Positions 3,013 through 19,546 of a DNA stretch of 23,933 nt are shown here, piece after piece. A program made the position numbers and the translations under genes. Under the pieces are notes generated by a model, which searched no databases, had not been told where the DNA came from, and saw only the letters and a program-made list of their open reading frames with translations. The stretch is from a virus. The stretch spans positions 1-23,933 of the IMG/VR virus record IMGVR_UViG_3300010397_000087, one strand, 5' to 3'. Every line of letters starts with the position of its first letter. The stretch's first letter is position 1.

Positions 3013-4968
3013 TTAAATGAAACATTGACAATTAATTACGTCATCCGCTCCTCCGCTGTAATCACCTGGAAACATCAATCCGTTGCTGAAGGCGCTCTCG
3101 AGTGGCTTCTCCTCTCCGTCCATTGCTCTGTGCGCGTCTCTCATTCCGCCACGCGTACCAGGAGCCCAAACCCATATCTTTATCGGAAGGCCGGCTTGCT
3201 TGTAACCCTGAGAAGTTCCGTATTGAGTCACGCCATGCACTTCAGTTCTCGCTATCATCTCAGCTCGCGACTTGCTGATCTCTCCGTATGTTTCTTCGAT
3301 TCTTCCGATAAGCTCCTGTCGGCTTTCACCGGCATCGAGTGATTCGCTAAAAGCACTTTGAAGGGTTTCAAAAGTAGTCGCTGTAATCTGTTCAGCGAAT
3401 ATTCTTGTTTTCCTATCCAACCAACTTTGAATCTCCGGAGTCTCGTTGAAATCCCAACTTGAACCGGCTATTTCTTTTGCGTCCTCAGCAGACTCAATCA
3501 GTAATTGTTGAAGGATTGGCAAGACCGCATCCTTAGCCAATCGAATTTCCAAAGCCATTCCAAAAATCTCTCCGAGAAGACCCTTCACGCGGAATCGTTT
3601 TTGACCCTGAAGTTTTTCAATCAATCTCGTTCGCTGACCAACAAAGTAATTCTCGATAACGTCAAGCATTCTTTTTTGCCGACGATCAAGACGCTTCAGA
3701 CATAAGGCATGATAGATTTCTCTGTTTTCTCTGTTCTTCAATGGGTGATTAAATGCCTTTATTAAGCCTTTATTTGGCTCTACTGACGCCTGACTGTTCA
3801 TCTCAACGAGATTAAGAGGAACAAGAATAGTGTCGCCACCCTTAACAGGATCAAGCCCGAGGGCTTCTCGTTTCTCGTTCGTTGTCATGGCATTCACTGT
3901 ATTTGCCGTTTCGAGATCCTTTCTTTTTTCTTCTTTGTTTGCCGGTGTAGGATCTACGAAAGAAAGATCAAGTGACTCCTCTACGAGTCGCTCATCCAAA
4001 ATAGTCACTAATGATTGAAGTAATGGCTGCACTACTTCGGCCAAAAATATTCTGATAGAAGCATCAGAATTGGAGAATGTTTCATTCGAAGTAAGTCCGA
4101 GAATCGCGCGTGGCACTCCGGTCAAAAGAAGTATGTCATCGAGCGTCACTTTCTTTGTTTCAAGATAAGCAAGCTCGTTCGGACTCAGACCGAGTTTTTC
4201 ATATGTGGCATCTCCGGCCAAAAATAGAGGAAGGCCGGCATTGCTGGCGTTGCCGTATTCTTCCTGATACTGCTCTTTCAGTTCTTTAAGCTGATTTTTA
4301 TTCAGTGAGCCTGTTTTGAAATTGAACACACCTTCGACTCTTCCGCCGTTTTCAAGGATCTTCGAATGGTACTCATCAATCTGCGTTGACGTTTCAATTT
4401 GCCGGATACCGGACTGCAACAATGACTCGCCGCGAAGCGGATTAGCCGGATCAGGATTGTGGGAATAAATGATTTGTTCTCCTGGAATAACTTGAAGTCC
4501 GGCTGTCGTTTGATATTCAATCTTTTGGAGCTCTCCTGTCTTTTCATTAAAATATGGCTTGACCGAGCCACTTTGCAAAAGATGCATTTCGTTCACTTTG
4601 GTTTTGCCACCCATGCGCAACTCAGTATCGAGCATGATGTAAACTTCGCCGAAGATGTCCATGTACTTCTGGTACAGTCGCCAGAATTCATACCCCGTAA
4701 ATGCCTTGTTTGGTTTCGCGAGTAAGTCAAGAACGTCATGCTTCTCTACAATCGCATCGCCTCTTTTCAAAACGAATTTTATTGCTCCGACTTTTTCTGC
4801 TCTTTTATTTACCGCGCGATTGGCATAAAGAGAAATTCCATAAGCGCTAAGATAATCAGATGAAGAATATTTCTTTTTGTATTTCGAAAATGGCAAAATT
4901 GAAAAACCCGAAAAAGGATCTTCACTATCTATAAAATTCTTTATTCTTGTTTTTAATCTCTCGAACAT
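3013..4968 (-). CDS. Portal protein fused to MuF-type head morphogenesis domain
   Basis: A 651-residue protein. The first 400 or so residues are a phage portal (motifs such as YANRAVNKRAEKVGAI, GYEFWRLYQKYMDIFGEVY, LLTGVPRAILGLTSNETFSN), forming the ring through which DNA is packaged. The C-terminal part, from about 530, is a MuF minor head protein domain: ARTEVHGVTQYG near 573-584, a conserved HRAMDG at 613-618, LMFPGDYSGGADD, and INCQCFI at the very end. Portal and MuF are often two genes, so this is a natural fusion; I see no frameshift. The start codon follows directly on the U-run of a terminator hairpin (4969-5012), so expression should depend on read-through of that hairpin. Confidence 0.92.
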   Translation of the reverse strand: MFERLKTRIKNFIDSEDPFSGFSILPFSKYKKKYSSSDYLSAYGISLYANRAVNKRAEKVGAIKFVLKRGDAIVEKHDVLDLLAKPNKAFTGYEFWRLYQKYMDIFGEVYIMLDTELRMGGKTKVNEMHLLQSGSVKPYFNEKTGELQKIEYQTTAGLQVIPGEQIIYSHNPDPANPLRGESLLQSGIRQIETSTQIDEYHSKILENGGRVEGVFNFKTGSLNKNQLKELKEQYQEEYGNASNAGLPLFLAGDATYEKLGLSPNELAYLETKKVTLDDILLLTGVPRAILGLTSNETFSNSDASIRIFLAEVVQPLLQSLVTILDERLVEESLDLSFVDPTPANKEEKRKDLETANTVNAMTTNEKREALGLDPVKGGDTILVPLNLVEMNSQASVEPNKGLIKAFNHPLKNRENREIYHALCLKRLDRRQKRMLDVIENYFVGQRTRLIEKLQGQKRFRVKGLLGEIFGMALEIRLAKDAVLPILQQLLIESAEDAKEIAGSSWDFNETPEIQSWLDRKTRIFAEQITATTFETLQSAFSESLDAGESRQELIGRIEETYGEISKSRAEMIARTEVHGVTQYGTSQGYKQAGLPIKIWVWAPGTRGGMRDAHRAMDGEEKPLESAFSNGLMFPGDYSGGADDVINCQCFI

Positions 4969-5012
4969 AAAAAAACCGATAGAAAAAACACGTTATGTGT
5001 CTCCTATCGGTT
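4969..5012 (-). terminator. Intrinsic terminator abutting the portal start codon
   Basis: On the minus strand AACCGATAG (5012-5004) pairs with CTATCGGTT (4982-4974); inside, ACAC/GTGT can form a second short stem. Seven U residues follow and run straight into the portal AUG at 4968. It lies downstream of a promoter (5047-5075), so it behaves like an attenuator rather than an end-of-operon terminator. Confidence 0.75.
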
Positions 5013-5046
5013 CGTCCGCTTTGAGATTTCTTTAGTTGTTGCAATT

Positions 5047-5075
5047 ATAATAGCACAACTAGCCAAAAAGCACAA
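5047..5075 (-). promoter_or_regulatory. Candidate promoter for the portal-capsid unit
   Basis: Minus-strand TTGTGC, 17-nt spacer, TATTAT, with an extended -10 TG one base upstream (TGCTATTAT). The -35 is a weak match. It lies in the 3' end of the DUF2292-like gene and directs transcription into the terminator at 4969-5012 and then the portal gene. Confidence 0.45.
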
Positions 5076-5210: not shown

Positions 5211-6452
5211 TTATATAAATCCTACGAATGACTGCTGATTATTCGAGACTACGCCGTACCTTATGGCATCCTTTGCGTGGTTAAAATTGTCTATCGGCTT
5301 ATTCGTCGGCTCCTTATTCTGATCTAAAGCCCATTTATACTCATGATTTTCGTTATCTATATTCGTGCTGGACTCCGTATAATAGACGTTTTTGCCTATC
5401 AGAAGGTCAATTCCGGCTCTTACGCTGTCTTGACCCTTCGGAGCGGCTCTCACGTCCCAATCATCATCTCTGAGCTCCTGAATCGATTTTGGCTCGGCGC
5501 TATCGGCATATATGACGCTAGACTTCTTTATACCGAGATCTGCGAACCGTTCAGATAGCCTTTTATTGGTAAGCCCAACCTCATACAGTAATTCCTTGCA
5601 CCATATATCATCGTTATGTTCCTTGATTTCAATGAGTGCGGCAGGATCATTCGAAAACCCGAAGTCCAATCCGTAATATGAGTCGTAGGGTAATTCGTTG
5701 AATTCCTTGTCTGTAATAATCTTCCAGTTCTTGTAGATCCTCCCTCGCGCGCCTTCACTCACCAGCCCCTCGATCATGTTATAGTAGTGATCCGGATTTC
5801 TATCTTTATACCTTTCATAATTATCAATCGTTTTCTGGTTGAGATTTTTTATATTATCCTTATACGTTCCATGTATATAAATAGTGTCCGTCTCAGTGCT
5901 TTTCAATTCCGCCTTGTAGTATCCTGGAACGATTGAACTGATGAGATTGAACCAGCGTTTGATGATCCAATGATTCTTATCCGGCGGATTGAGGAGTAAG
6001 ATGATCGTGATATCCGCCTTTATTGTTCTTAGGGAATCATCCAATTGTTGAAAGTCCTCTTCGGCCACTTCATCGGCCTCTTCGATGATAATGCAGTTGT
6101 AACTCGCGAGAGACTTCAATTTTGACTTCTGGTCACTACTCGATTTTCTAAATCCGATGCCATTTATTTTGTTATGCTTGTGTCTGAATTCCAGCGTATT
6201 TTCTCTGATCTCTATCTGCTCAACTTCGTTCTCTTCAACTCTGTCTCTGATTTCTTGAAATATTGAATTCCTAATATCACCCAAGACATACCGCATAATG
6301 GCGCAACGGAAGTAATCGGCCGAGAGCAATTTAACAAGCGAAAACTGACTGGCCGCATACGATCTGCCGGACGCTCGACCGCCCATACAGATGATGTATC
6401 TTGGTCTTTCAAGGAACAGAGGCTTATATAATTTACTCGTGCTTAGGTTCAT
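5211..6452 (-). CDS. Terminase large subunit (PBSX family type)
   Basis: A 413-residue packaging motor: an N-terminal ATPase that pumps DNA into the head and a C-terminal RNase H-like nuclease that cuts concatemers. The Walker A region is GGRASGRS at 24-31, Walker B is CIIIEEADEV at 120-129, and a coupling-type motif ILLLNPP is at 151-157. The nuclease acidic residues are D263 (GLDFGFSNDP), D317 (IYADSAEP) and D395 (NHAKDAIRYG). Size and motif order match the PBSX-family terminases. The usual Walker A lysine is replaced by Arg (GRS instead of GKS). The gene overlaps the end of the small terminase gene by 20 nt. Confidence 0.93.
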   Translation of the reverse strand: MNLSTSKLYKPLFLERPRYIICMGGRASGRSYAASQFSLVKLLSADYFRCAIMRYVLGDIRNSIFQEIRDRVEENEVEQIEIRENTLEFRHKHNKINGIGFRKSSSDQKSKLKSLASYNCIIIEEADEVAEEDFQQLDDSLRTIKADITIILLLNPPDKNHWIIKRWFNLISSIVPGYYKAELKSTETDTIYIHGTYKDNIKNLNQKTIDNYERYKDRNPDHYYNMIEGLVSEGARGRIYKNWKIITDKEFNELPYDSYYGLDFGFSNDPAALIEIKEHNDDIWCKELLYEVGLTNKRLSERFADLGIKKSSVIYADSAEPKSIQELRDDDWDVRAAPKGQDSVRAGIDLLIGKNVYYTESSTNIDNENHEYKWALDQNKEPTNKPIDNFNHAKDAIRYGVVSNNQQSFVGFI

Positions 6453-6951
6453 TGAATTCTTCGAATACTATCTTAATTTCATTTAATGGCTTTCCTCCGC
6501 TGGTGATATCGTTCTTTCCAATCGTAGTCGGCTCCCCCAATTCCGTCTTAATTATTTCCCAAGCCGTTTTGATTTCCTTGTAATACGGCAATTGTTCGAT
6601 AATAAGCGGCTTTCCTTCCGAATCGAAAAGCTGAATGCCAAACTTATTTCTGACGAAAACATTGTGAGATTCGAGAATCCGCATGGCATTCTCTATGGCA
6701 AGCATTTTTGCATCCTGTAATTTTTCTTGAACCTCCAATGCTCTCTTTTTCCTATTTGCAAGAAACTGCTCTTTGAAATGATAGAAAGTGCAGTAGTAAT
6801 GAATCTGCGTATACGCCTTAAAAAGACAGTCCGGATCAAGAAGCATCTGTGACATTCGGCCATTCCATTTATCGTAAAGCGCATAGAGAATGTCCCTCTC
6901 GATTACGCTCAAAGGTCTGTATATTGGTTTTTTAGGGCTTTTCACGTCCAT
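6433..6951 (-). CDS. Terminase small subunit-like protein
   Basis: A protein of about 172 residues placed directly before, and overlapping, the large terminase gene; position is the main evidence. It has a helical DNA-binding-like N-terminal half (VIERDILYALYDKWNGRMSQ) and a long charged helix (ANRKKRALEVQEKLQDAKML), in line with small terminases that recognise the packaging site. The frame is open to an ATG at 6978, but that codon lies inside the terminator hairpin at 6964-6999, so I take the ATG at 6951 (MDVKSPKKP). No Shine-Dalgarno sequence precedes it. I cannot assign a specific small-terminase family. Confidence 0.7.
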   Translation of the reverse strand: MDVKSPKKPIYRPLSVIERDILYALYDKWNGRMSQMLLDPDCLFKAYTQIHYYCTFYHFKEQFLANRKKRALEVQEKLQDAKMLAIENAMRILESHNVFVRNKFGIQLFDSEGKPLIIEQLPYYKEIKTAWEIIKTELGEPTTIGKNDITSGGKPLNEIKIVFEEFNEPKHE

Positions 6952-6963
6952 AAAAGTGTTAAC

Positions 6964-6999
6964 AAAAAGAGACGACAAACCATAAATGGTTGTCGCCTC
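6964..6999 (-). terminator. Intrinsic terminator before the terminase genes
   Basis: On the minus strand, GAGGCGACAACCAT (6999-6986) pairs with ATGGTTTGTCGTCTC (6983-6969), with one bulged base and one G-U pair, then UUUUU. It lies between a promoter (7046-7074) and the terminase start at 6951, so it can act as an attenuator. The first stem bases (GAGGC) are also the end of the 26-nt repeated element. Confidence 0.75.
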
Positions 7000-7020
7000 G
7001 TTTGATACGTCAGCGGTATT
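6995..7020 (-). repeat. 26-nt leader element, copy 2
   Basis: A 26-nt sequence identical to 13222-13247. On the minus strand it begins AATACCGCTGACG and ends CAAACGAGGC, the last five bases forming the start of the terminator stem. It is intergenic in both places and the flanking DNA differs, so it has been conserved or copied as a unit. Confidence 0.9.
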
Positions 7021-7035
7021 TAGTTTTTTCTTCCC

Positions 7036-7425
7036 CTACTTACCCATTTTATAATCAATTATCGCTTCTGTCAGCTTCATATAGTCAGCGATAGACATTT
7101 GCCGGAAATCAAATCCGAATTCTGCAATGATGTAATCCTGCATCTCCTTATTTTTTGCCTCGCGTTTTTCGGCGGCTTCGAAAACTTCTGTATAGCGACT
7201 TCGAAGAATTTGTCCAGCCTCGCCCTTTAAGTTTCCGGTAATTCTCAACTCCTCCCAGAGCTCGCCCTCCGTAACTTCCACGTCTTTATCGCCTCTTTTA
7301 AGTGTCAGCTTAGTAGCGCGATTATCAGTTGCCTTTTTATACAAATCGCTCTCTTGGCCGAGCAATGCCTGAAGCTCTGCATTCAGCGCGTACACTCTTT
7401 CGATTTTTTCTTTGTTCGTCGTCAT
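7036..7425 (-). CDS. Unknown phage protein, helical
   Basis: A 129-residue, highly charged protein predicted by eye to be mostly helical (KIERVYALNAELQALLGQ, SRYTEVFEAAEKREAKNKEM). I do not recognise a family. The upstream codon at 7443 is a GTG; the ATG at 7425 (MTTNKEKIERV) is the better start and leaves a 14-nt gap after the YopX gene. A good candidate promoter (7046-7074) lies inside its 3' end. It could be a head or tail assembly chaperone, but nothing in the sequence shows that. Confidence 0.65.
   Translation of the reverse strand: MTTNKEKIERVYALNAELQALLGQESDLYKKATDNRATKLTLKRGDKDVEVTEGELWEELRITGNLKGEAGQILRSRYTEVFEAAEKREAKNKEMQDYIIAEFGFDFRQMSIADYMKLTEAIIDYKMGK
7046..7074 (-). promoter_or_regulatory. 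Candidate promoter for the terminase unit
   Basis: Minus-strand CTGACA, 17-nt spacer, TAAAAT: five of six bases match consensus in each box. It lies in the end of the gene at 7036-7425 and reads into the 26-nt leader element and the terminator at 6964-6999, the same layout as at 13.2 kb. Confidence 0.55.
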
Positions 7426-7439
7426 AACCTTGTTATTTA

Positions 7440-7817
7440 TCACTTATTAATTTCGTAAATGTTACCAATCACTTCAAACTTCGTTTCACTTCTCGATAAC
7501 TGATCCAGAGCGTATACTTTGTCTTCACCGCAATCCATTGCAAACATGGCATGGATGTAAACTATTTCCCCTTCGCCGTCATTTGCTCTCACGATATCCC
7601 CCTCATAAATCTCCTTGCCGTTCTTGTCTTTGAGGCCGGTGTATTCTGTGAAAAGAAAATCATCTTTACTGTATAATCCAAGCTTTTTATTAGCGAAAAC
7701 GCTATTGCCTTCATGTTCATCTTCATGTCCGGCAGTCACGAAATCCCAAAGCGATTCAAAAAAGATGAATATTCTCAATCTTTTATCCCACGCCCTAAAT
7801 TTTATTTCTCTAGCCAT
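7440..7817 (-). CDS. YopX family protein
   Basis: A 125-residue protein with the clear YopX pattern: it opens MAREIKFRAWDKRLR, then FTEYTGLKDKNGKEIYEGDI followed by a short beta-rich end (FEVIGNIYEINK). YopX proteins are common in phages of Firmicutes and others; their biochemical role is not established. It overlaps the upstream gene by 16 nt, and a near-consensus promoter (7854-7882) lies just before it, so it may be transcribed apart from the glycan cassette. Start and length agree with the family. Confidence 0.88.
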   Translation of the reverse strand: MAREIKFRAWDKRLRIFIFFESLWDFVTAGHEDEHEGNSVFANKKLGLYSKDDFLFTEYTGLKDKNGKEIYEGDIVRANDGEGEIVYIHAMFAMDCGEDKVYALDQLSRSETKFEVIGNIYEINK

Positions 7818-8128
7818 AGCAGTATTTTTCTGAGTAAATTTTTAATAAGTCTTATTATAAAATTCTCTTTATCCGTTATCAATATTGGGACTTCCTCTTC
7901 TTCAACATCGCTCCATTGATCCTTCCTTTTATAGATATAAGTAATCCCAGTCCCTTTTATCGTGCCTGTGATTGTGTTGCCTTTTTCCTTAAGATTGAAT
8001 ACTGCGAGAAAGACCTGATCCAACATGACGGCATCGAGATTGACCGGACTGCGGAACTCCATCTCTCCGAAAGAATCCTCAACCGTATAGATGAATCCAT
8101 TTTCTTCTTTTTTCTCTAAGAATTGCAT
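7802..8128 (-). CDS. Unknown protein with basic amphipathic C-terminus
   Basis: A 108-residue protein not recognised. The middle is beta-rich (GNTITGTIKGTGITYIYKRK) and an acidic stretch (SDVEEEEVPI) is followed by a C-terminal helix rich in L, I, K and R (FIIRLIKNLLRKILLWLEK) that could bind a membrane surface. It overlaps the upstream glycosyltransferase gene by 13 nt and the YopX gene by 16 nt, so it is likely co-translated with them. A role in tethering the glycan machinery to the membrane is possible, but speculative. Confidence 0.65.
   Translation of the reverse strand: MQFLEKKEENGFIYTVEDSFGEMEFRSPVNLDAVMLDQVFLAVFNLKEKGNTITGTIKGTGITYIYKRKDQWSDVEEEEVPILITDKENFIIRLIKNLLRKILLWLEK
7854..7882 (-). 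promoter_or_regulatory. Candidate promoter before YopX
   Basis: Minus-strand TTGATA, 17-nt spacer, TATAAT (five of six and six of six). It lies inside the 3' end of the gene at 7802-8128, so a chance match in coding DNA is possible. It would serve the YopX gene (start 7817) and the next gene. Confidence 0.4.
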
Positions 8129-8895
8129 AGGCTTTCTCTGTACCGGATTATTCTGTTATCCCTGACTTCAACGACCTGTCCGTTTAAATACATCAGCCGC
8201 TTTACTCCGAGATCATTCAGGGCGTCTATCCAAAAATATTCTCTGTTCCGCAACTGCCGATATTCAGGCGTTTTCTCTTTTTTGTTATCAACTATTTTGA
8301 CATCATTCGTGAAAACTATAGGGTTCTTGACTCTGTAAAAGAAATGCTGATGTTCGATGAGTTTAAGCTTACTATTCCATTGTATATTATCAAAGACAGA
8401 TCTTTTAAAGAGTGCGAAATTAAGGACACAGCCGGTTCGCTTATAATGAACCCCTTTATGCTCCGTCCAATCATCTCCATCCGGTATTTGATAGATCGTG
8501 TCGCCTTCTCGCTTGAAATTAAATTCAAAGGAGAGTCTCGTACCATTCCTATAGACGCCTCCGCCGGCTATATCGGCCACCTCCATAAGCTCAAGCAGTT
8601 TTTCCACCTTCGTATCGGCCGTAAAAAGAAAATCATCTTCCAAGAGTAATTTATAAGGGAGATCCGTTTCTTTGACGAGAATATTTCGCGCGGCGGATAA
8701 CCCACAATCATACGGGAGCGGCAAAACTCTCAAATCATGGCGCGCCCAATTGTTATACAGTTCCGTATCAATCTCTTTGCTCTGATCGGCCACTGTCACT
8801 TTCGCGAATGGATAGAACGTGAAAATACTATCCAAGAGTTCTTGCAATAGCTCGTATCGGTCAATCGTCGTAATGATGAAATCTACGTTCTGCAT
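8116..8895 (-). CDS. Glycosyltransferase, GT-A fold (GT2/GT12-like), copy 1
   Basis: A 259-residue inverting-type sugar transferase. Key motifs are DCGLSAARN at 63-71 and the metal-binding EDDFLF at 86-91, followed by TKVEKLLELME; this combination is typical of GT12-like (beta-1,4-GalNAc transferase-like) and related GT2 enzymes. A later EHQHFF is a likely acceptor or catalytic region. The donor sugar cannot be told from sequence. No membrane segment is seen. It is paralogous to the enzyme at 9605-10381, with which it shares all three motifs. It overlaps the epimerase gene by 13 nt, so both are probably made together. Likely role: adding a sugar to a phage or cell-surface glycan. Confidence 0.85.
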   Translation of the reverse strand: MQNVDFIITTIDRYELLQELLDSIFTFYPFAKVTVADQSKEIDTELYNNWARHDLRVLPLPYDCGLSAARNILVKETDLPYKLLLEDDFLFTADTKVEKLLELMEVADIAGGGVYRNGTRLSFEFNFKREGDTIYQIPDGDDWTEHKGVHYKRTGCVLNFALFKRSVFDNIQWNSKLKLIEHQHFFYRVKNPIVFTNDVKIVDNKKEKTPEYRQLRNREYFWIDALNDLGVKRLMYLNGQVVEVRDNRIIRYRESLCNS

Positions 8896-9608
8896 TTTTC
8901 TTTTATGTATTGGATTACATCTATTTTATGAACCCAATCCGGCGTTGTGTTTTCCAAAACTGATCGCTGTATTTCTCCATTCCGCGCCGGTTCAAACACA
9001 ACTTCCTTCCCTGTTGCTACAGCGAGATCGAGTATATGCAATCCTTTCTTGCTGCCGCAATCATAGACGCCTTTCGGCCAATTCTTTGCTAAGATGAAGG
9101 CCTCAACGATATCGTCAACATGCACGAAATCTCTTATAGCTGTTCCTTTGCCGTAAATAACGCACTTGCTTCCGCGAATGAAGTTATCGACAACGCCCAC
9201 CGGCTTATCTCCAAAAATACTTGAAAGCCTTAGAATAACGTAATCGTTACAGAGCATTTTTATATACTCTTCAGCAATTTTCTTGCTCAAACCATACGGA
9301 CTCTTCGGCTCCAAAGAAGCGGCCGAAGCCGGAAAAATCAACCGAGCCTCATACTTGTTTGCAATCTCAATCGCCTTGAGTGTTCCGAGAATATTCTGTC
9401 GCGCGTCATTAATTGGATCTTCATCTGACGGAACCGCGCCGGCTTGTCCGGCCATATGATAAATGATGTCTGGTTTACCCTTCGGCATATATGTCAGAAC
9501 ATCTCTCCCTATTTTCAAATCGCATTCTTCAATGGATTCATCAAAAAGCAAGCCTCTGCTTTTCAGCCTCGATCCTATATAGCCATGACTGCCGGTAATA
9601 TAAATCAT
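8883..9608 (-). CDS. NAD-dependent sugar epimerase/dehydratase (extended SDR)
   Basis: A 241-residue short-chain dehydrogenase acting on a nucleotide sugar. The NAD-binding loop TGSHGYIG is at 5-12, the Ser region PASAAS at 94-99 and the catalytic Tyr/Lys pair Y105-G-L-S-K109. IRDFVHVDDIVEAF is the usual C-terminal substrate-side motif of UDP-glucose 4-epimerase and dTDP-rhamnose enzymes. It is shorter than most of the family (310-340 residues), with a trimmed C-terminus. It overlaps the upstream glycosyltransferase as ATGA and the downstream one by 13 nt, so it probably supplies one of them with its donor sugar. Confidence 0.87.
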   Translation of the reverse strand: MIYITGSHGYIGSRLKSRGLLFDESIEECDLKIGRDVLTYMPKGKPDIIYHMAGQAGAVPSDEDPINDARQNILGTLKAIEIANKYEARLIFPASAASLEPKSPYGLSKKIAEEYIKMLCNDYVILRLSSIFGDKPVGVVDNFIRGSKCVIYGKGTAIRDFVHVDDIVEAFILAKNWPKGVYDCGSKKGLHILDLAVATGKEVVFEPARNGEIQRSVLENTTPDWVHKIDVIQYIKEKCRT

Positions 9609-10381
9609 AGAGAATCTCTTACACCGCTTATGGTTATCGAATAATCTATTCCGAGTGATTTAAAATAATATTCTTTATCCTGCCGTCTCATCCGATAGAA
9701 CCGGTATTCATTCGTCACCGGATAATTTTGGAACTTATGCAAAACGAGCGGATCAGGACTGAAAGCAACTTTCGCTTTCTTTTTCTTCAGATTGACAAAG
9801 AAGTGATGGTGCTCATACGCCACCTTGATATTCTCGTCCCACTTATATTTCTCCAAAATACGCTTCCTCGCGACAAAGTAATTGAATATCAAATCGCATT
9901 TCTCGAATCTTAAGCCGCTCTTTTCCTCTCTCTTGGTTATCGAATCGGGGTTCTTAATTGGATCTGTCCGAATGAACTTACTCTTTATTTTTATAAAGCC
10001 CTGATAATTCCTGACTTTGGCGTCTTGAATTATCCTTCCGCCGATAACGTCAAAATCCGTATTCTTCAAGAACTCGAGCATCTGATCTACCTTAGCCCTT
10101 TCGTCATAGAGAAAATCATCATCTCCGACAAGAACATATTCCGTATCAACCAATTCAATGAGCTTGTTCCTTGAGGCTCCGACACCACAATCGAAGGGAA
10201 GCTCTACATACGTCGCCCCGTATTTTTCACAAACCTTTACGACGCCCCTACTAGGTTTATCTTTTATTTGCTCTCCCACCATTATCTTTATGTTCGGATA
10301 GTTCCTTCTCAACGATTTAACACAGCCGATCGTATACTCCGGCCGCATAAAACTGACGACAATTGCAGTGAGATTCTTCAT
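9605..10381 (-). CDS. Glycosyltransferase, GT-A fold (GT2/GT12-like), copy 2
   Basis: A 258-residue sugar transferase, paralogue of the one at 8116-8895. It has DCGVGASRN at 64-72, DDDFLY at 87-92, AKVDQMLEFL just after, and YEHHHFF further on, aligning motif for motif with the other copy. DDD is the metal and nucleotide-sugar site. The two copies are clearly diverged, so they likely make different linkages. Start and stop overlap neighbours by ATGA on both sides, placing it firmly in the cassette. The acceptor is unknown; no membrane segment or signal peptide is visible. Confidence 0.85.
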   Translation of the reverse strand: MKNLTAIVVSFMRPEYTIGCVKSLRRNYPNIKIMVGEQIKDKPSRGVVKVCEKYGATYVELPFDCGVGASRNKLIELVDTEYVLVGDDDFLYDERAKVDQMLEFLKNTDFDVIGGRIIQDAKVRNYQGFIKIKSKFIRTDPIKNPDSITKREEKSGLRFEKCDLIFNYFVARKRILEKYKWDENIKVAYEHHHFFVNLKKKKAKVAFSPDPLVLHKFQNYPVTNEYRFYRMRRQDKEYYFKSLGIDYSITISGVRDSL

Positions 10382-10959
10382 AATTCTGATGGAAAGATGA
10401 ATGCGTGACCCTGAGCAAGCTTTTCGATAACCATTGCTTCAAATTCTTCGAGACTGAAATCATGAGCGAAAGGATGAAGCTGAATAACGCTTTCACCGTC
10501 AATATTGATAATCCGCTTTCCTATCTGCTCAATTTCCTTTCTGTTATGAGCCTCTGGCGTGTAGTAAATGTTTTTAATAAGGCTGTAATCTTTCAAGAAA
10601 TCAAGCGCTCTCTGATCGCAAGCATTCGCCGGAAACCCGATCGTCTCAATCTGTACGCCCAGGCGTTCCAATACGATCTGATCCGTTCGCGAGATGCTTT
10701 CCTTCTGATATTCATCACTTGTTTTGTAAAACTCTTTCACCGGCTTCCCTACTACATGCCAAAAGGAATGGTTGAATACCTCAACGAGATCTTTATTCTC
10801 TTTTAAGAAATCAATGGCCTCTTTATTCGCGGTAGTGATGCCGGCTCCGACAACGCCCAGAGAGATCTTTATATTGCGCCTAAGAACAACGTCAAAAAAG
10901 AGCTTTTCTCTCTCCCAATCTTTTCCCCAAAAATCATCACATTTGAGAATTATATTCAT
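10378..10959 (-). CDS. Polysaccharide deacetylase-like protein
   Basis: A 193-residue protein with features of the NodB/carbohydrate esterase 4 fold: an Asp pair early on (ILKCDDFWG, D8-D9), a His-based metal motif (FNHSFWH, H64 and H68), a turn TIGFPANACDQRAL that resembles the conserved 'F..P.G' motif, and a terminal QLHPFAHDF. Such enzymes remove N- or O-acetyl groups from glycans. It is shorter than many CE4 domains and the match is by motif only. The start ATG at 10959 overlaps the methyltransferase stop as ATGA; the TTG at 10974 is rejected. It sits between methyltransferase and glycosyltransferase, fitting a glycan-editing step. Confidence 0.68.
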   Translation of the reverse strand: MNIILKCDDFWGKDWEREKLFFDVVLRRNIKISLGVVGAGITTANKEAIDFLKENKDLVEVFNHSFWHVVGKPVKEFYKTSDEYQKESISRTDQIVLERLGVQIETIGFPANACDQRALDFLKDYSLIKNIYYTPEAHNRKEIEQIGKRIINIDGESVIQLHPFAHDFSLEEFEAMVIEKLAQGHAFIFPSEL

Positions 10960-11483
10960 ATCGTTTTGTACCAAACACGTTGATTTTTATTAGCTTCCGG
11001 CAAGAGCTCATCAACTGCTTTTTTCACTCCAGGATGAACATCGGTATAATCGTCTCCGCAAATCACCTTTTGCGCTCTCGTACTCCACATTTCGATATCC
11101 TTTTTTACGTCTTCATATTCGTGAGATCCGTCGATGAAAACTAAATCTACCTTCTGAGGATCGGATAGAGAAGTAAATACCTCCTCGGAAGTACCCCTCA
11201 AAACAGCGATCCTCTTCTCTATACCGAGTTCTTTCATATTGAACACAAATTGCTCATAAAGCGTTGGAAGTCTTTTTTGAACCTCTGCACTAGCGTTTAT
11301 ATCCTTAGATCCCTCAAACGTATCAATTGAAATGACAACACAACCTTGCTCCACAAAAAACTTCGTTGACTTGCCAAGAAAACAACCTATCTCAATGACG
11401 GTTTTTACATCGTTCTCTTTGATAAGTTTTTTCAGCGTTTCCTCATTCTCTTCCGGAAACCAGCCGTATAAATCGAGTTCCAT
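10956..11483 (-). CDS. SAM-dependent class I methyltransferase
   Basis: A 175-residue Rossmann methyltransferase (Methyltransf_24 type). The SAM-binding motif VIEIGCFLGKST comes after the first helix, the acidic post-strand residue is in ISIDTFEG, and DLVFIDGSHEYEDVKKDIEMW is the very typical late motif of this family, often found in glycan and O-methylation loci. Start ATG 11483 (MELDLYGWFPE) is chosen over an upstream codon at 11513 because the latter would overlap the preceding gene. Its place in the cassette suggests methylation of a sugar or polyol phosphate; nothing indicates DNA as a substrate. Confidence 0.85.
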   Translation of the reverse strand: MELDLYGWFPEENEETLKKLIKENDVKTVIEIGCFLGKSTKFFVEQGCVVISIDTFEGSKDINASAEVQKRLPTLYEQFVFNMKELGIEKRIAVLRGTSEEVFTSLSDPQKVDLVFIDGSHEYEDVKKDIEMWSTRAQKVICGDDYTDVHPGVKKAVDELLPEANKNQRVWYKTI

Positions 11484-11493
11484 ACTGTTCACT

Positions 11494-11808
11494 TTAAAAA
11501 TCTTCCAAATCAACTGTCTGACCGGCCATATCGTGCGTGCTATCGCTTAGAAATTCAATCTTGCCGTTAGTAACATACGAATGACATATATGACAGAACT
11601 TTCGTTCTTTCTTGCACATCTCACAATCTTCTTTTGTTTTTCCTTCAGCATAATGTCCTGACCTGACCAGTAATGATGGGCTGATCGTCGGATTTTCCAT
11701 GTCACCATTGAATTGCCAAATAGTGTCGTTAAACCAATGGCCGCACTTGCACGCCGGACAGAACAACATGAATTTCCCTGGCTCGTTTTCTACTTTGTGT
11801 ATTTTCAT
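11494..11808 (-). CDS. DUF6527-like zinc-binding phage protein
   Basis: A 104-residue protein with CPACKCGHWF near the N-terminus, CEMCKKERKFCHICH in the middle, and a terminal GKIEFLSDSTHDMAGQTVDL. These features match a phage protein family I know as DUF6527, often mislabelled as ammonia monooxygenase. The cysteine pairs would bind one or two zinc ions. Function is unknown. The start ATG at 11808 directly follows the TagD stop (TAA at 11811); the frame is open upstream to 11898, but that would overlap TagD. Its presence inside the sugar cassette is odd and may be chance. Confidence 0.78.
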   Translation of the reverse strand: MKIHKVENEPGKFMLFCPACKCGHWFNDTIWQFNGDMENPTISPSLLVRSGHYAEGKTKEDCEMCKKERKFCHICHSYVTNGKIEFLSDSTHDMAGQTVDLEDF

Positions 11809-11810
11809 TT

Positions 11811-12182
11811 TTATAAATCTACTTTTAATAACGTCGATGAAATCCCCTCTGTTCTCGGAAAGTATATGCAATTGTAATTGTCGAACTTTCCTTTCCAATC
11901 ACTCCCCATTACCATTTGCGCGCCGTACTTTTTAAGATCTCTTCCCTTTTGACTCCAATTCCGCTCCGGTATGATTTCGTCGATATATTTTATCGATTCC
12001 AGAACTTCCTTTCGCTGTAAGTATGTTTGAATCGACTTCTTGCCCTTGAGAGCATTGAACTTGTCCGTAGATAGAGCAACTATCAAATAATCACATCTTT
12101 TCTTCGCTCTTTTTAAAAGTCTGGCATGACCATAGTGAAAGAGATCGAATGTTCCGTAAGTGATAATCACTCTATCTTTCAT
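11811..12182 (-). CDS. tagD: Glycerol-3-phosphate cytidylyltransferase
   Basis: A 123-residue nucleotidyltransferase that makes CDP-glycerol (or a related CDP-activated compound) from CTP and a phosphorylated alcohol. It has GTFDLFHYGH at 10-19 with the HxGH signature at 16-19 and RTEGISST at 110-117, the two key sites of the TagD family; length is close to the family's 125-130. In bacteria this enzyme supplies teichoic acid synthesis. The start overlaps the LicD stop as ATGA, so the two proteins should be made together, and the CDP-linked product is a plausible donor for that LicD enzyme. Exact substrate (glycerol, ethanolamine or other phosphate) cannot be read from the sequence. Confidence 0.9.
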   Translation of the reverse strand: MKDRVIITYGTFDLFHYGHARLLKRAKKRCDYLIVALSTDKFNALKGKKSIQTYLQRKEVLESIKYIDEIIPERNWSQKGRDLKKYGAQMVMGSDWKGKFDNYNCIYFPRTEGISSTLLKVDL

Positions 12183-12748
12183 AGAAACTTTCCTTCAGAT
12201 ATAAGATTCTTTGGATCTCTCGCCCAATCCCATTTCTTTACTGGAACCCTCCATTCCTTGCCATATTTCGCTTCCAAAACGCCTTCCGGATCAGAGGGGA
12301 TACGAAACAGAAGTCCCCTGAACAATCTTCCGTCTAAGGAGTCAAAATGCTTCCGATCATACTCATACGTCAAAATATCGTTAGGAAGAGTCCTACCGCC
12401 ATTTAAAAAAGCATTAAACCTGATCTTCTCACCTACTTTGTAGTAGAAAAAAAAGTCAATCTTAATGCCATCGCGATACCACGCTGCTTCAAAATGCCGT
12501 CCGAATGTACCAAAGCTATGATAGAGAATAAAACCGTGCTTCATCATTTCAAGAACGACTTTAGAAAAGGTTTCAAAATCCCATTCTTCCATGAATACGC
12601 CGAGATCTAAATCGGTATCGTGTCCGATGAAATCATTTTCTCTCACCACTCCAAGCAAAGTTCCATCAATAAGAAAATTCGTAAGTCCGAATTTATCCAG
12701 GACAACTGTAGCGTCTACAAGATTTCTAAAAGCTTTAGCATTATCCAT
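12179..12748 (-). CDS. LicD-family phosphotransferase
   Basis: A 189-residue member of the LicD/fukutin-related nucleotidyltransferase-like group, which moves phosphocholine or a polyol phosphate from a CDP carrier onto a sugar. The signature is FLIDGTLLGVVRENDFIGHD at 25-44 followed by TDLDLGVF, with the D44-x-D46-x-D48 metal site. The start at 12748 is supported by GAGGAA 9 nt upstream, one of the few good ribosome sites here. It lies 4 nt after the DUF1617-like gene and overlaps TagD by ATGA. LicD proteins often decorate glycans, so it is probably the final transferase of a TagD-LicD pair. Confidence 0.85.
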   Translation of the reverse strand: MDNAKAFRNLVDATVVLDKFGLTNFLIDGTLLGVVRENDFIGHDTDLDLGVFMEEWDFETFSKVVLEMMKHGFILYHSFGTFGRHFEAAWYRDGIKIDFFFYYKVGEKIRFNAFLNGGRTLPNDILTYEYDRKHFDSLDGRLFRGLLFRIPSDPEGVLEAKYGKEWRVPVKKWDWARDPKNLISEGKFL

Positions 12749-12752
12749 AGTC

Positions 12753-13112
12753 TTATTCCTCAATAAGATCGAATATTCCTGATAATTGTCCGGCGGTTAT
12801 TTCGGCCGGAATATCTTCTCTTCTTACTTTGTGCAAGGTCACATCGTTTTCTATCTTCATGAGCTCCTCGTATTCCTCGTTGAATTTCGTCAGATTAACC
12901 ATCTCAATCTTGCCGTCCTTGATAATCATTTCTCCCTTCGCATCTTTTTGGGCATGCTCCTTTTGGAGCTTCATGATGGTTTCCTGAACCGCCTCGAGTT
13001 CTTTAGCAATGTTTTTCAGGTTCTTCGAAATGGCGTAAGCGAATTTAACGCCTTTAAGATCGCCGCATTCGCGGATTGCCATCGACAACTCAATGAGTTT
13101 TCTATTTTGCAT
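12753..13112 (-). CDS. DUF1617-like phage protein
   Basis: A 119-residue, mostly helical protein. The layout, an N-terminal helix (AIRECGDLKGVKFAYAISKN), a charged middle helix, then KDAKGEMIIKDGKIEMVN and a conserved-looking LTKFNEEYEELMKIENDV, recalls DUF1617 proteins of phages of Gram-positive bacteria; this match is from memory and only moderate. Function unknown. It is the first gene after the promoter-leader-terminator module at 13.2 kb and has a further hairpin (13126-13163) in its leader. LicD follows 4 nt downstream. Confidence 0.6.
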   Translation of the reverse strand: MQNRKLIELSMAIRECGDLKGVKFAYAISKNLKNIAKELEAVQETIMKLQKEHAQKDAKGEMIIKDGKIEMVNLTKFNEEYEELMKIENDVTLHKVRREDIPAEITAGQLSGIFDLIEE

Positions 13113-13125
13113 AAAGTATTTATCC

Positions 13126-13163
13126 TTGTGCTGAACCCAACTTGCAAGAAAGGTTCAGCGCAA
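13126..13163 (-). promoter_or_regulatory. Leader hairpin before the DUF1617-like gene
   Basis: GCTGAACC pairs perfectly with GGTTCAGC (13159-13152 with 13137-13130), extended by three more pairs past a mismatch; the 14-nt loop holds the palindrome CTTGCAAG. No U-run follows. It lies between the terminator and the start codon at 13112 and could control translation or RNA processing. Confidence 0.5.
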
Positions 13164-13188
13164 GAATTGCAAGTTAATTATTTTCTAC

Positions 13189-13226
13189 AAAAAAAAGAGA
13201 CACTCCCCTTGATGGGTAAGTGCCTC
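13189..13226 (-). terminator. Intrinsic terminator before the glycan cassette
   Basis: Minus-strand GAGGCACT pairs with AGTGTCTC (one G-U pair), with inner CCC/GGG pairs, followed by eight U residues. It lies about 35 nt downstream of a strong promoter, so it would stop most transcripts from it unless it is read through. Confidence 0.8.
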
Positions 13227-13247
13227 GTTTGATACGTCAGCGGTATT
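13222..13247 (-). repeat. 26-nt leader element, copy 1
   Basis: Identical over all 26 nt to 6995-7020. On the minus strand it runs from AATACCGCTGACG to the GAGGC that opens the terminator stem. It begins about 11 nt after the -10 box, so it would be at the very 5' end of the RNA. Confidence 0.9.
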
Positions 13248-13258
13248 CAATTAAAATC

Positions 13259-13287
13259 ATTATACAACTTTTCTAAAGTATGGTCAA
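13259..13287 (-). promoter_or_regulatory. Strong promoter for the glycan cassette
   Basis: Minus-strand TTGACC, 17-nt spacer, TATAAT: five of six and six of six matches with ideal spacing, in an intergenic gap just after the gene at 13284-13535. It is the best promoter in the window and reads into the leader element and terminator. Confidence 0.75.
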
Positions 13288-13535
13288 ATTCTTATCTTCC
13301 TACTTTGTTTAAAAACCGGCATTGCCCCATCAATGAGTTCTACATTTCCAAATCCCGAAGCGAGCATCTCCTCAAAAGCGTTCTTCATCTCGTACGGTAA
13401 GGGGTTTCTTCTCCAACGGATATCATCGACAAAGAAATGACCGTCTTCCTTAATCTTGATATTGAATTCTCCGAGCCCATGATCACAAGCTTCATCGAGT
13501 GCCTGATGGAGTCGCGCTCTCTTTTCTTCCGTCAT
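13284..13535 (-). CDS. Unknown small protein
   Basis: An 83-residue protein (MTEEKRARLHQALDEACDHGLGEFNIKI...) with a helix, a beta hairpin (HFFVDDIRWRRNPL) and a helix. No recognised family, no cysteine motif and no membrane segment. It is the last gene of the upstream small-gene cluster, with the -35 box of the strong promoter touching its stop codon. Confidence 0.65.
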   Translation of the reverse strand: MTEEKRARLHQALDEACDHGLGEFNIKIKEDGHFFVDDIRWRRNPLPYEMKNAFEEMLASGFGNVELIDGAMPVFKQSRKIRI

Positions 13536-17924: not shown

Positions 17925-18134
17925 GCTCAACCTACTGCTCAACCTCAGTTTATTTTTTGTGGCTTATTCAAAGGCATTTACTCGACCTGCACCACCTACA
18001 CTACTTTTTTTCTATAAACCCTAAATATTTTATTTATTACTCTTTTCTTTAATAGGTAGAGTAGGTAGAGTAGGTATAGTAATGAGGCTTATATAAGGAG
18101 AAAAATGCTACTCAACCTACTAGACCTACTCGAC
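17925..18134. other. Candidate replication origin: 9-bp repeat arrays and AT-rich core
   Basis: Non-coding stretch between the primase-like and helicase genes. Three arrays of three 9-bp units share the consensus GAGTAGGTN in one or the other orientation: 17978-18004, 18053-18079 (TAGGTAGAG twice, then TAGGTATAG) and 18108-18134 (on the plus strand CTACTCAAC, CTACTAGAC, CTACTCGAC). GCTCAACCT also occurs twice, at 17925 and 17937. The arrays flank an AT-rich core at 18005-18052. The last array includes the helicase stop codon. The design matches iterons plus an unwinding element, but could also be an operator region. Confidence 0.55.
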
Positions 18135-19454
18135 TTCACTTCCTACTTTTTCTTCAGCTATTCCGAATTTTTCTAAAAAACTTGCTCTTTTCTTAAACCA
18201 CCGTCTTTTTCGTGTACCATTGACCATCGTTTGCCTCGTTTCATAGCCCAAATGTTTCAGAGCTAAAGCTACTTGCATCTCTTCCGCCTTCTTAATTCGC
18301 GACTTATCCCCATACAGTGCAAACAGCCAGACGTCCATGATCGTGAAGCCTTCTTCTTCGAAATTCATCCTTATTCCATTGATGCCGATAGGTTTATTCA
18401 GCCAATCATCAATCGTGTCTTCGAAGGCGCTGCGCACCATCTTTGCCTCTTGCTTGATTTCCGCTTCCGCTGGATACTCGTAAACGCTTTCTTTGAGTTT
18501 TTCTACCCTATAAAGCGCTTCAGCGAACAATTGCTGTCGGTTCTCAATGAGCCACTGAGTGTTTACCATCCCTTCCACTTCCACAGGAAAAAATCTTCTG
18601 TTACCGGATTCGTCTTTGAGGTACTCATCTTGGTTCGTAGACATGGCAAAAACGCACCGGCGCGGTACATCCTTCATGGTTCGGCCGTACGGGGCGCGGT
18701 AAGTATCGGTATTCGTGGAGATCATGGCCTTCATGTTCTTCGTTTCTGTTCTTGAAAGAGTTTCTCCTTCGGAGAACTCGACAATGAGCTTGCCTTTGAA
18801 TTGCATGAAGAAATCTTTGCTATCGGCCTTGAGAGTCGTTTCCAAATGCCAGTCTCCGGCGATGATTGAGAGAGACGTTGACTTCCCACAGCCTTGCTTG
18901 CCTTCGAGAATGAGGACGGTATCGAATTTGCATCCAGGCTTGATAATGCGTTTCACCATTCCCTTGAAAAAGTTCGATCCCACCGCTTTGTGATATTCGT
19001 CCTCGGCCGTTCCGTAGACCTTTGAGAGCCAGGTATCAAGTCTTGGTTTCTTATCCCAAGCTTCCTTCCGTATAAAGTTAATCGCTCGATCAAAAGAATG
19101 AGCGCGACAGGCATCACCGACAGCATCAATGACCATTTCCTTGCTCAAAGACCGGAAAGGGACGTACATGGATGAAATTTCACGTTGAATCGGGGTATAG
19201 TCGGTATCATCAATCTCGCGCCATACCTTTTCGTCTTTGATTTCCAATTTCTGCGTCCATTCATCGAAACGGAAACGTCCGGCGTAGATCGGATGGCGCT
19301 CGAGAATTCGGAAGACATTTTCCACGCACCGATTGGTAGTTTTCTTACCAGCATTGTCTGTAGTAAGGAGATCCATTTTCTCCAATGGATACTGTTTTAT
19401 TTCCTCGGCGACATTGCCACCGAGTGTATCGTAGACATTCTTTTCTTTTTCCAT
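18126..19454 (-). CDS. VapE/VirE-type helicase (primase-helicase family)
   Basis: A 442-residue SF3-like P-loop ATPase. Walker A is GKQGCGKS at 185-192, Walker B LIVEFSE at 223-229, the sensor-like segment AMISTNTDTYRAPYGR at 244-259, and arginine-finger motif GNRRFFPVEV at 285-294; this order is characteristic of the virulence-associated protein E family (PF05272), which act as phage and satellite replicative helicases. The N-terminal 170 residues hold no recognisable primase motif, so priming may rely on the adjacent CHC2 protein. Its stop codon lies in the third 9-bp repeat array. Upstream of its start lies the possible RNA switch at 19476-19540. Confidence 0.9.
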   Translation of the reverse strand: MEKEKNVYDTLGGNVAEEIKQYPLEKMDLLTTDNAGKKTTNRCVENVFRILERHPIYAGRFRFDEWTQKLEIKDEKVWREIDDTDYTPIQREISSMYVPFRSLSKEMVIDAVGDACRAHSFDRAINFIRKEAWDKKPRLDTWLSKVYGTAEDEYHKAVGSNFFKGMVKRIIKPGCKFDTVLILEGKQGCGKSTSLSIIAGDWHLETTLKADSKDFFMQFKGKLIVEFSEGETLSRTETKNMKAMISTNTDTYRAPYGRTMKDVPRRCVFAMSTNQDEYLKDESGNRRFFPVEVEGMVNTQWLIENRQQLFAEALYRVEKLKESVYEYPAEAEIKQEAKMVRSAFEDTIDDWLNKPIGINGIRMNFEEEGFTIMDVWLFALYGDKSRIKKAEEMQVALALKHLGYETRQTMVNGTRKRRWFKKRASFLEKFGIAEEKVGSEVE

Positions 19455-19475
19455 AAAAAGTTTCTGTATTGGTTT

Positions 19476-19540
19476 TCTTCTCTCGACCCCACTAACCGCT
19501 TAATGGGGTGAAGAGAAGAGCGGTTAATTACTCTTCTCTC
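19476..19540 (-). promoter_or_regulatory. Candidate RNA switch in the helicase leader
   Basis: In transcript order: AGAGAAGAG (19539-19531), CTCTTCTCT (19520-19512) and AGAGAAGA (19483-19476). The middle arm can pair with either partner. The second fold gives a 16-pair stem (19519-19504 with 19491-19476) with two mismatches and a 12-nt loop. That loop holds AGCGGTT, which can pair with AACCGCT at 19525-19519 as an alternative or pseudoknot. The element starts 7 nt after the SSB stop and ends 22 nt before the helicase start. Confidence 0.55.
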
Positions 19541-19546
19541 TATCCC

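Follow-up and report, generated by a model that had tools for sequence, protein, structure and literature searches.

Why would an intrinsic terminator stand between a promoter and the operon behind it? The virus record IMGVR_UViG_3300010397_000087, all 23,933 bases of which were analysed (the window), raises this question on the minus strand, where all of its predicted genes lie. An initial annotation had pointed out that at two sites a promoter is followed by an identical 26-nucleotide (nt) element, a terminator and then genes, and had proposed that the leader serves antitermination. We find a third such module ahead of the portal gene, similar ones in related phages, and a small leader hairpin which overlaps the terminator. 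The modules are probably protein-switched transcription attenuators, off by default, which gate phage operons; we put the probability of this reading at about 0.62.

Two copies of a leader element

The element, AATACCGCTGACGTATCAAACGAGGC, occurs exactly at 13222–13247 (copy A) and 6995–7020 (copy B) and has no further copy in the window; the number expected by chance is 0, shuffled sequences giving none even at 3 mismatches. Both copies precede intrinsic terminators, as initially reported. Module A opens with a promoter (13259–13287) composed of a -35 sequence TTGACC (13287–13282), 17 nt and a -10 sequence TATAAT (13264–13259); it agrees with the consensus at 11 of 12 positions and begins on the stop codon of the open reading frame (ORF) 13284–13535. 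Terminator A (13189–13226) reads GAGGCACTTACCCATCAAGGGGAGTGTCTC plus T8, and terminator B (6964–6999) reads GAGGCGACAACCATTTATGGTTTGTCGTCTC plus T5; their hairpins (13226–13197 and 6999–6969) have predicted energies of about -16 to -17 kcal/mol. Promoter B (7046–7074; CTGACA-17-TAAAAT) matches 10 of 12 consensus positions and could be a chance occurrence. Because promoter-like sites are no commoner across the window than in shuffled sequence, and because this one overlaps the 3′ end of ORF 7036–7443, promoter B is insecure when considered by itself. Both copies do lie behind a sigma-70-type promoter, as initially reported, with this reserve for B.

The distance from the -10 sequence to the element is 11 nt in A and 25 nt in B, while the junction of element and terminator is constant; the element therefore goes with the terminator rather than with the promoter. 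The stems had been described as different in sequence and the 26 nt as identical, which is correct except that the 3′ end of the stem, GTCTC, is also common to both and includes a G.U wobble in each copy.

Neither the 26-mer nor an 18-mer from it had a match in viral_contigs, and a 21-mer had no exact match in genome_contigs (~85,000 species genomes). Thirteen matches of a 16-mer, none followed by a terminator, and three short phage matches were chance-like and were discarded. Rfam (4227 covariance models) gave no match in the window at E≤1.

A hairpin that competes with the terminator

The 26-nt element is predicted to fold into GCU[GA]CGU-AUCAA-ACG[A]GGC (13241–13222 in copy A) at -4.0 kcal/mol, a structure which accounts for 91% of the ensemble. 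With the neighbouring bases of copy B it becomes CGCU[GA]CGU-AUCAA-ACG[A]GGCG (7015–6994), with -6.1 kcal/mol and a z-score of -2.15. The 3′ strand of the element, GAGGC, is at the same time the 5′ arm of the terminator, and the identity of the two copies stops exactly at the end of this strand. Since the two structures share it, hairpin and terminator are mutually exclusive.

The third module, C (5075–4969), had been overlooked in the initial annotation. Its promoter (5047–5075) is TTGTGC-17-TATTAT with an extended TG and an overlapping TATAAT; the homologous promoters of the related loci L003, L004 and L005 read TTGACA-18-TATAAT. Antiterminator C (5000–5026), UCUC[AAAG]CGG-ACGAA-CCG[AUAG]GAGA, is predicted at -6.8 kcal/mol (z-score -2.4), and its 3′ side lies within the arm of terminator C (4969–5012; AACCGATAGGAGACACATAACGTGTTTTTTCTATCGGTT; -17.8 kcal/mol), the T-run of which reaches the portal ATG (4968–4966). 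In an alignment the inner stem and loop of this antiterminator are kept in the relatives, and the position of the terminator is matched in L003, L004, L005, L044, L045, L046 and L059.

The general layout is an outer stem of 3–5 base pairs, an internal loop, an inner stem of 3–5 base pairs and a loop of 3–8 nt. As the MAFFT alignment of the elements was out of structural register, pairing was assessed by an anchored permutation test. The outer stem is present in every one of the 13 anchored leaders, whose sequences differ, and compensatory changes among relatives include CUU/AAG, CCUU/AAGG, UCCU/AGGA, GCU/AGC, CCUC/GGGG and UAUCC/GGAUG. Portal-type modules retain an inner CGG-A...A-CCG. In genome G002 it is the inner stem that varies by compensation (GCU..AUCG-AGAA-CGAU..AGC vs GCU..AUAG-AGAA-CUAU..AGC), and the outer stems in G004 are GGC/GCC and GCC/GGC. 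Permuting the 3′ strands among phages lowered the summed score of the 13 leaders from 115.5 to 71.5 ± 11.8 (p = 5e-5), and that of ten less redundant leaders from 90 to 55.8 ± 10.2 (p = 2.5e-4). Compared with the ordinary terminators found in these genomes, module leaders also had higher scores (Mann-Whitney p = 0.0003, or 0.019 for 14 nominally independent ones); taken singly against shuffled leaders the modules are weak, B and C giving p = 0.035 and 0.015. Mutual exclusion and co-variation are shown by computation. A bare mini-hairpin abutting the terminator was enriched over all modules and not for A and B alone; it has been superseded by the two-part antiterminator.

That the leader acts as RNA, as had been proposed, agrees with this co-variation of leader and terminator arm. 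The accompanying comparison with the put sites of phage HK022 is not supported, the element being a small hairpin in competition with a terminator.

The same results bear on the view that there is no switch, the stem-loop and U-tract lying in a 5′ untranslated region and serving mRNA stability or translation, or else the terminators belonging to the upstream operon and following a chance promoter. The T-run does often extend to the start codon without an intervening Shine-Dalgarno sequence, and the locus L050 carries the hairpin without a U-tract. However, in A and B the T-run is separated from the following start codon by 76 and 12 nt, a stem with an abutting T5–T8 is a textbook terminator, and co-variation between leader and terminator arm is not what this view would predict; we consider it the least likely explanation of all.

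Promoter and terminator order in related phages

Relatives of the window comprised ~100 loci gathered via TerL; one of them, L042, is part of a metagenome-assembled genome (MAG) assigned to Moraniibacteriota (Patescibacteria). A module was counted when a promoter with a score of at least 10 lay 19–70 nt upstream of a terminator. This was so for 22 of 129 coding-strand terminators, which come partly from close relatives and are not fully independent, whereas a promoter lay downstream in 5 of 129. On the opposite strand 4 of 233 terminators had a promoter upstream, and in eight dinucleotide shuffles 0–4 of 70–91 did. At a score of at least 11 there were 11 real promoter-terminator pairs vs 0–1.

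The clearest cases are L003, L004 and L005, in which a perfect TTGACA-18-TATAAT stands 30–33 nt ahead of the terminator and the T-run ends at or near the portal ATG. A module before the portal start codon recurs over TerL identities of ~48–80%, and the same class precedes very different portal genes (L022, L064, L075) and other probable structural genes (L107, L108, L111). Genome G002 has two modules (L107:8273 and L010:11576) with a common leader and differing terminator interiors, and the leaders of two modules in G005 (L109:3785 and L064:11659) have a shorter motif in common. The architecture of promoter, leader and terminator, from which the need for a bypass had been deduced, is therefore statistically real and recurs in relatives, and G002 repeats the shared-leader pattern.

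Strong promoters with a terminator close behind, ahead of late genes, also bring to mind the gate of phage lambda, where the Q protein, seated on promoter DNA, catches the polymerase at a sigma-dependent pause, after which the terminator is ignored (pR'-tR'). In the portal promoters L003:1940, L004:7780, L005:1568, L044:3428 and L045:11426 a YACAAT follows TATAAT by exactly 5 nt, and a -10-like element of this kind causes sigma pausing (PMC6606751). It is, however, missing from window modules A–C, no member of a Q family was found in the 11 records searched (see below), the spacers between -35 and -10 are unlike each other, and the conserved part is transcribed and lies at a variable distance from the promoter. 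The unlike spacers and the lack of a Q match in these records led us to reject a DNA-level Q gate, and we consider a gate of this type very unlikely here.

How the modules might work

We infer that the promoters and terminators are active, that termination is the default and that a trans-acting protein relieves it. A sigma-70-type promoter would fire, RNA polymerase would make the intrinsic terminator within ~25–45 nt, and by default the transcript would stop there as an RNA of ~60–75 nt. Were the leader to fold instead into the small hairpin, the terminator could not form. In the window modules the hairpin is predicted at about -4 to -7 kcal/mol and the terminator at about -16 to -18; because the terminator is far more stable, the terminated RNA should be the default and something must hold the hairpin. 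Since the leader is apparently not long enough to encode a leader peptide or to hold an aptamer, the switch is most likely a protein, one that binds RNA, is produced in the infected cell and opens the operon by stabilising the hairpin.

A more specific form of this proposal can be offered tentatively, its odds being perhaps one in three. The modules would constitute an undescribed family of phage attenuators, in which a single RNA-binding protein encoded by the virus, and new in its fold or family, reads the fast-changing small hairpin and opens all virion operons together, with one hairpin-protein pair per lineage.

Alternatively the terminated transcript of 60–75 nt might itself be the product, either a base-pairing small RNA or an RNA anti-CRISPR which mimics a CRISPR (clustered regularly interspaced short palindromic repeats) repeat. 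A promoter and a terminator ~70 nt apart are the usual form of a small-RNA gene, phages encode solitary CRISPR repeats (PMC10651486), and the leader of L010 includes a Cas12a-type repeat handle. Yet the position of the module is fixed just 5′ of operon starts, with the T-run often touching the ATG, and the A/B element lacks array-like or exact matches in the genomes searched. We therefore judge this reading to be rather improbable.

The L010 handle is worth recording in its own right. The portal leader at L010:11516–11625 has TAATTTCTACTTTTGTAGAT, the handle in question, between a TATAAT promoter and the terminator; the sister module L107:8273 of that genome has no TAATTTCTACTTTTGTAGAT. The L010 repeat is a candidate RNA anti-CRISPR. 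The idea, prompted by this repeat, that the A/B element likewise mimics a CRISPR repeat was pursued in 380 Patescibacteria genomes, which may not represent the true host: at up to 3 mismatches there were 12 single matches, none array-like and with no excess over the reversed control. In the absence of array-like matches the idea was rejected.

Evidence against attenuation and the main rival

Several observations weigh against the attenuator reading. Modules A and B are peculiar to this phage, and only C is conserved among its nearest relatives: B is missing from those with sequence upstream of TerS, and L059, a relative bearing LicD, has no A-like module. The leader of window A alone is not significant against shuffled leaders (p = 0.43), window A, L022b and L042 come out weakly by the simple score, and L109 and L019 have no such structure by the scoring rule used. 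Furthermore, the pairing tests and scoring choices were designed after the sequences had been seen.

No known antiterminator gene was found by Pfam or PHROGs in the window ORFs tested, as had been noted at the outset. Family searches were extended to 11 records, which are fragments. None had CAT_RBD (PF03123; control positive in 4 genomes), the NusG family (PF02357; control positive in 10 genomes), or phage Q (PF03589, PF06530) and Antiterm (E. coli control positive). ANTAR (PF03861) was matched in none of the 11, and its control search was likewise without a match. The switch factor may be a host protein.

Finally, two relatives keep the hairpin before the portal gene, L050 with no U-tract and L052 with no terminator. 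It had been stated initially that finding the element in other phages without a terminator beside it would refute the proposal. This is half the case: the 26 nt themselves are in no other record searched, while an equivalent hairpin is present in these two. Hence the hairpin is, or once was, of use where no local terminator is at work, and it may have a further role.

As these two loci cut against a purely local switch, processive antitermination is the main rival. The hairpin would then be a loading site, similar to nut/boxB or of the LoaP type, and the bound factor would ride with the polymerase and suppress all later terminators, the overlap with the first one being incidental. The hairpin stands at the start of long operons, and its small loop resembles boxB. 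We nevertheless regard this as unlikely, if less so than the other alternatives: NusG/LoaP, Antiterm and phage Q families were absent from the 11 records, no boxA-like conserved sequence was seen by eye, and in the majority of modules the 3′ strand lies within the terminator arm, a feature that such a model does not need.

The gated genes and their surroundings

In the window, recombination and replication genes occupy the right-hand part and a sugar/glycan cassette the centre, after which come terminase, portal, protease and capsid. The cassette (8116–13112) has LicD, cytidylyltransferase, methyltransferase, deacetylase-like, glycosyltransferase and epimerase genes, possibly for virion or surface glycan modification, and is flanked by the two 26-nt elements. 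It opens with the first gene behind gate A (12753–13112; PHROG_1401, no function assigned), which when used as a query for relatives found none. Based upon its position before TerL (5211–6452; PHROGs match), the first gene behind gate B (6433–6951) probably encodes the small terminase subunit; it has no family match itself in PHROGs or Pfam. Behind gate C is the gene (3013–4968) for a portal protein with a head-morphogenesis domain, identified by PHROGs.

Past terminator A and ahead of the following gene, at 13130–13175 (minus strand), lie two perfect inverted repeats that overlap, AACTTGCAA..TTGCAAGTT and GCTGAACC..GGTTCAGC; as hairpins they are mutually exclusive, and the region folds at -21 kcal/mol (z-score -4). 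At 18051–18140, adjoining a helicase gene, there are iteron-like repeats TAGGTAGAGTAGGTAGAG with inverted copies, a possible replication origin, and inverted repeats CCGCTCTTCTCTTCACCCC..GGGGTCGAGAGAAGA lie ahead of the helicase gene at 19455–19546. Long GC-rich inverted repeats of the CACTCCCCTA..TAGGGGAGTG type (L004:5645–5760, L047:3508–3610, L055:1558–1644, L059:8417–8497) sit near or just 5′ of the small terminase gene and are a possible packaging site.

Comparison with known systems

Attenuation by competing hairpins is classic in bacterial sugar, nitrogen and amino-acid operons, whereas what is known from phages is chiefly processive antitermination (N, Q, put). We found no description of such leaders in phages in the literature searched, which included few subscription journals. 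If the attenuator reading is right, local protein-switched attenuators set the timing of virion genes across a broad group of uncultured tailed phages, which includes at least one from a Patescibacteria MAG. This would point to an antiterminator not yet known and provide a genetic switch that is portable, and a standard in vitro transcription assay could then be used to test how these phages control their late genes.

As with lambda pR'-tR', a constitutive-looking promoter is followed by a terminator and then by late genes. Unlike Q gates (PMC6606751), the conserved part here is the transcribed leader, there are several gates per genome, and the terminator is ~60–75 nt from the start. The put sites resemble our modules in having a leader RNA behind phage promoters, for which read-through was likewise proposed. 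The put RNA itself acts via the zinc-binding domain of the RNA polymerase beta′ subunit. The present hairpin is of 20–22 nt and -4 to -6 kcal/mol and overlaps the terminator itself, in contrast to put, which has ~70 nt with two long stem-loops, needs no phage protein and acts on distant terminators (PMC9378689). Solitary CRISPR repeats (RNA anti-CRISPRs, Racr) are also short transcribed elements behind a phage promoter, and L010 has its repeat at the module position; unlike these, the A/B element has no counterpart among CRISPR arrays of the genomes searched.

The closest parallels are bacterial. In the ribonucleic antiterminator (RAT) of BglG, SacY and LicT a small hairpin with an internal loop overlaps the 5′ arm of the terminator, each excludes the other, and several operons may share the site. 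Here too the antiterminator overlaps and excludes the terminator, with the outer 3′ strand falling inside the arm of the terminator (p = 5e-5 for co-variation). Unlike RAT, the internal loops are symmetric or small, the operons are those of phage virions, and CAT_RBD proteins are missing from the 11 records; the leader sequence differs from RAT as well. ANTAR leaders (EutV/NasR) have hairpins P1 and P2 with six-nt loops containing A1 and G4, the 3′ side of P2 overlaps the 5′ arm of the terminator, and terminators precede several genes of a cluster (PMC3369936). The overlap and the repeated terminators are alike in the present modules, whereas these have one hairpin with loops mostly of 4–6 nt (ANNAA/AGAA) and no A1/G4 pattern. 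On our best reading the modules would resemble RAT and ANTAR P2 attenuators in how they work.

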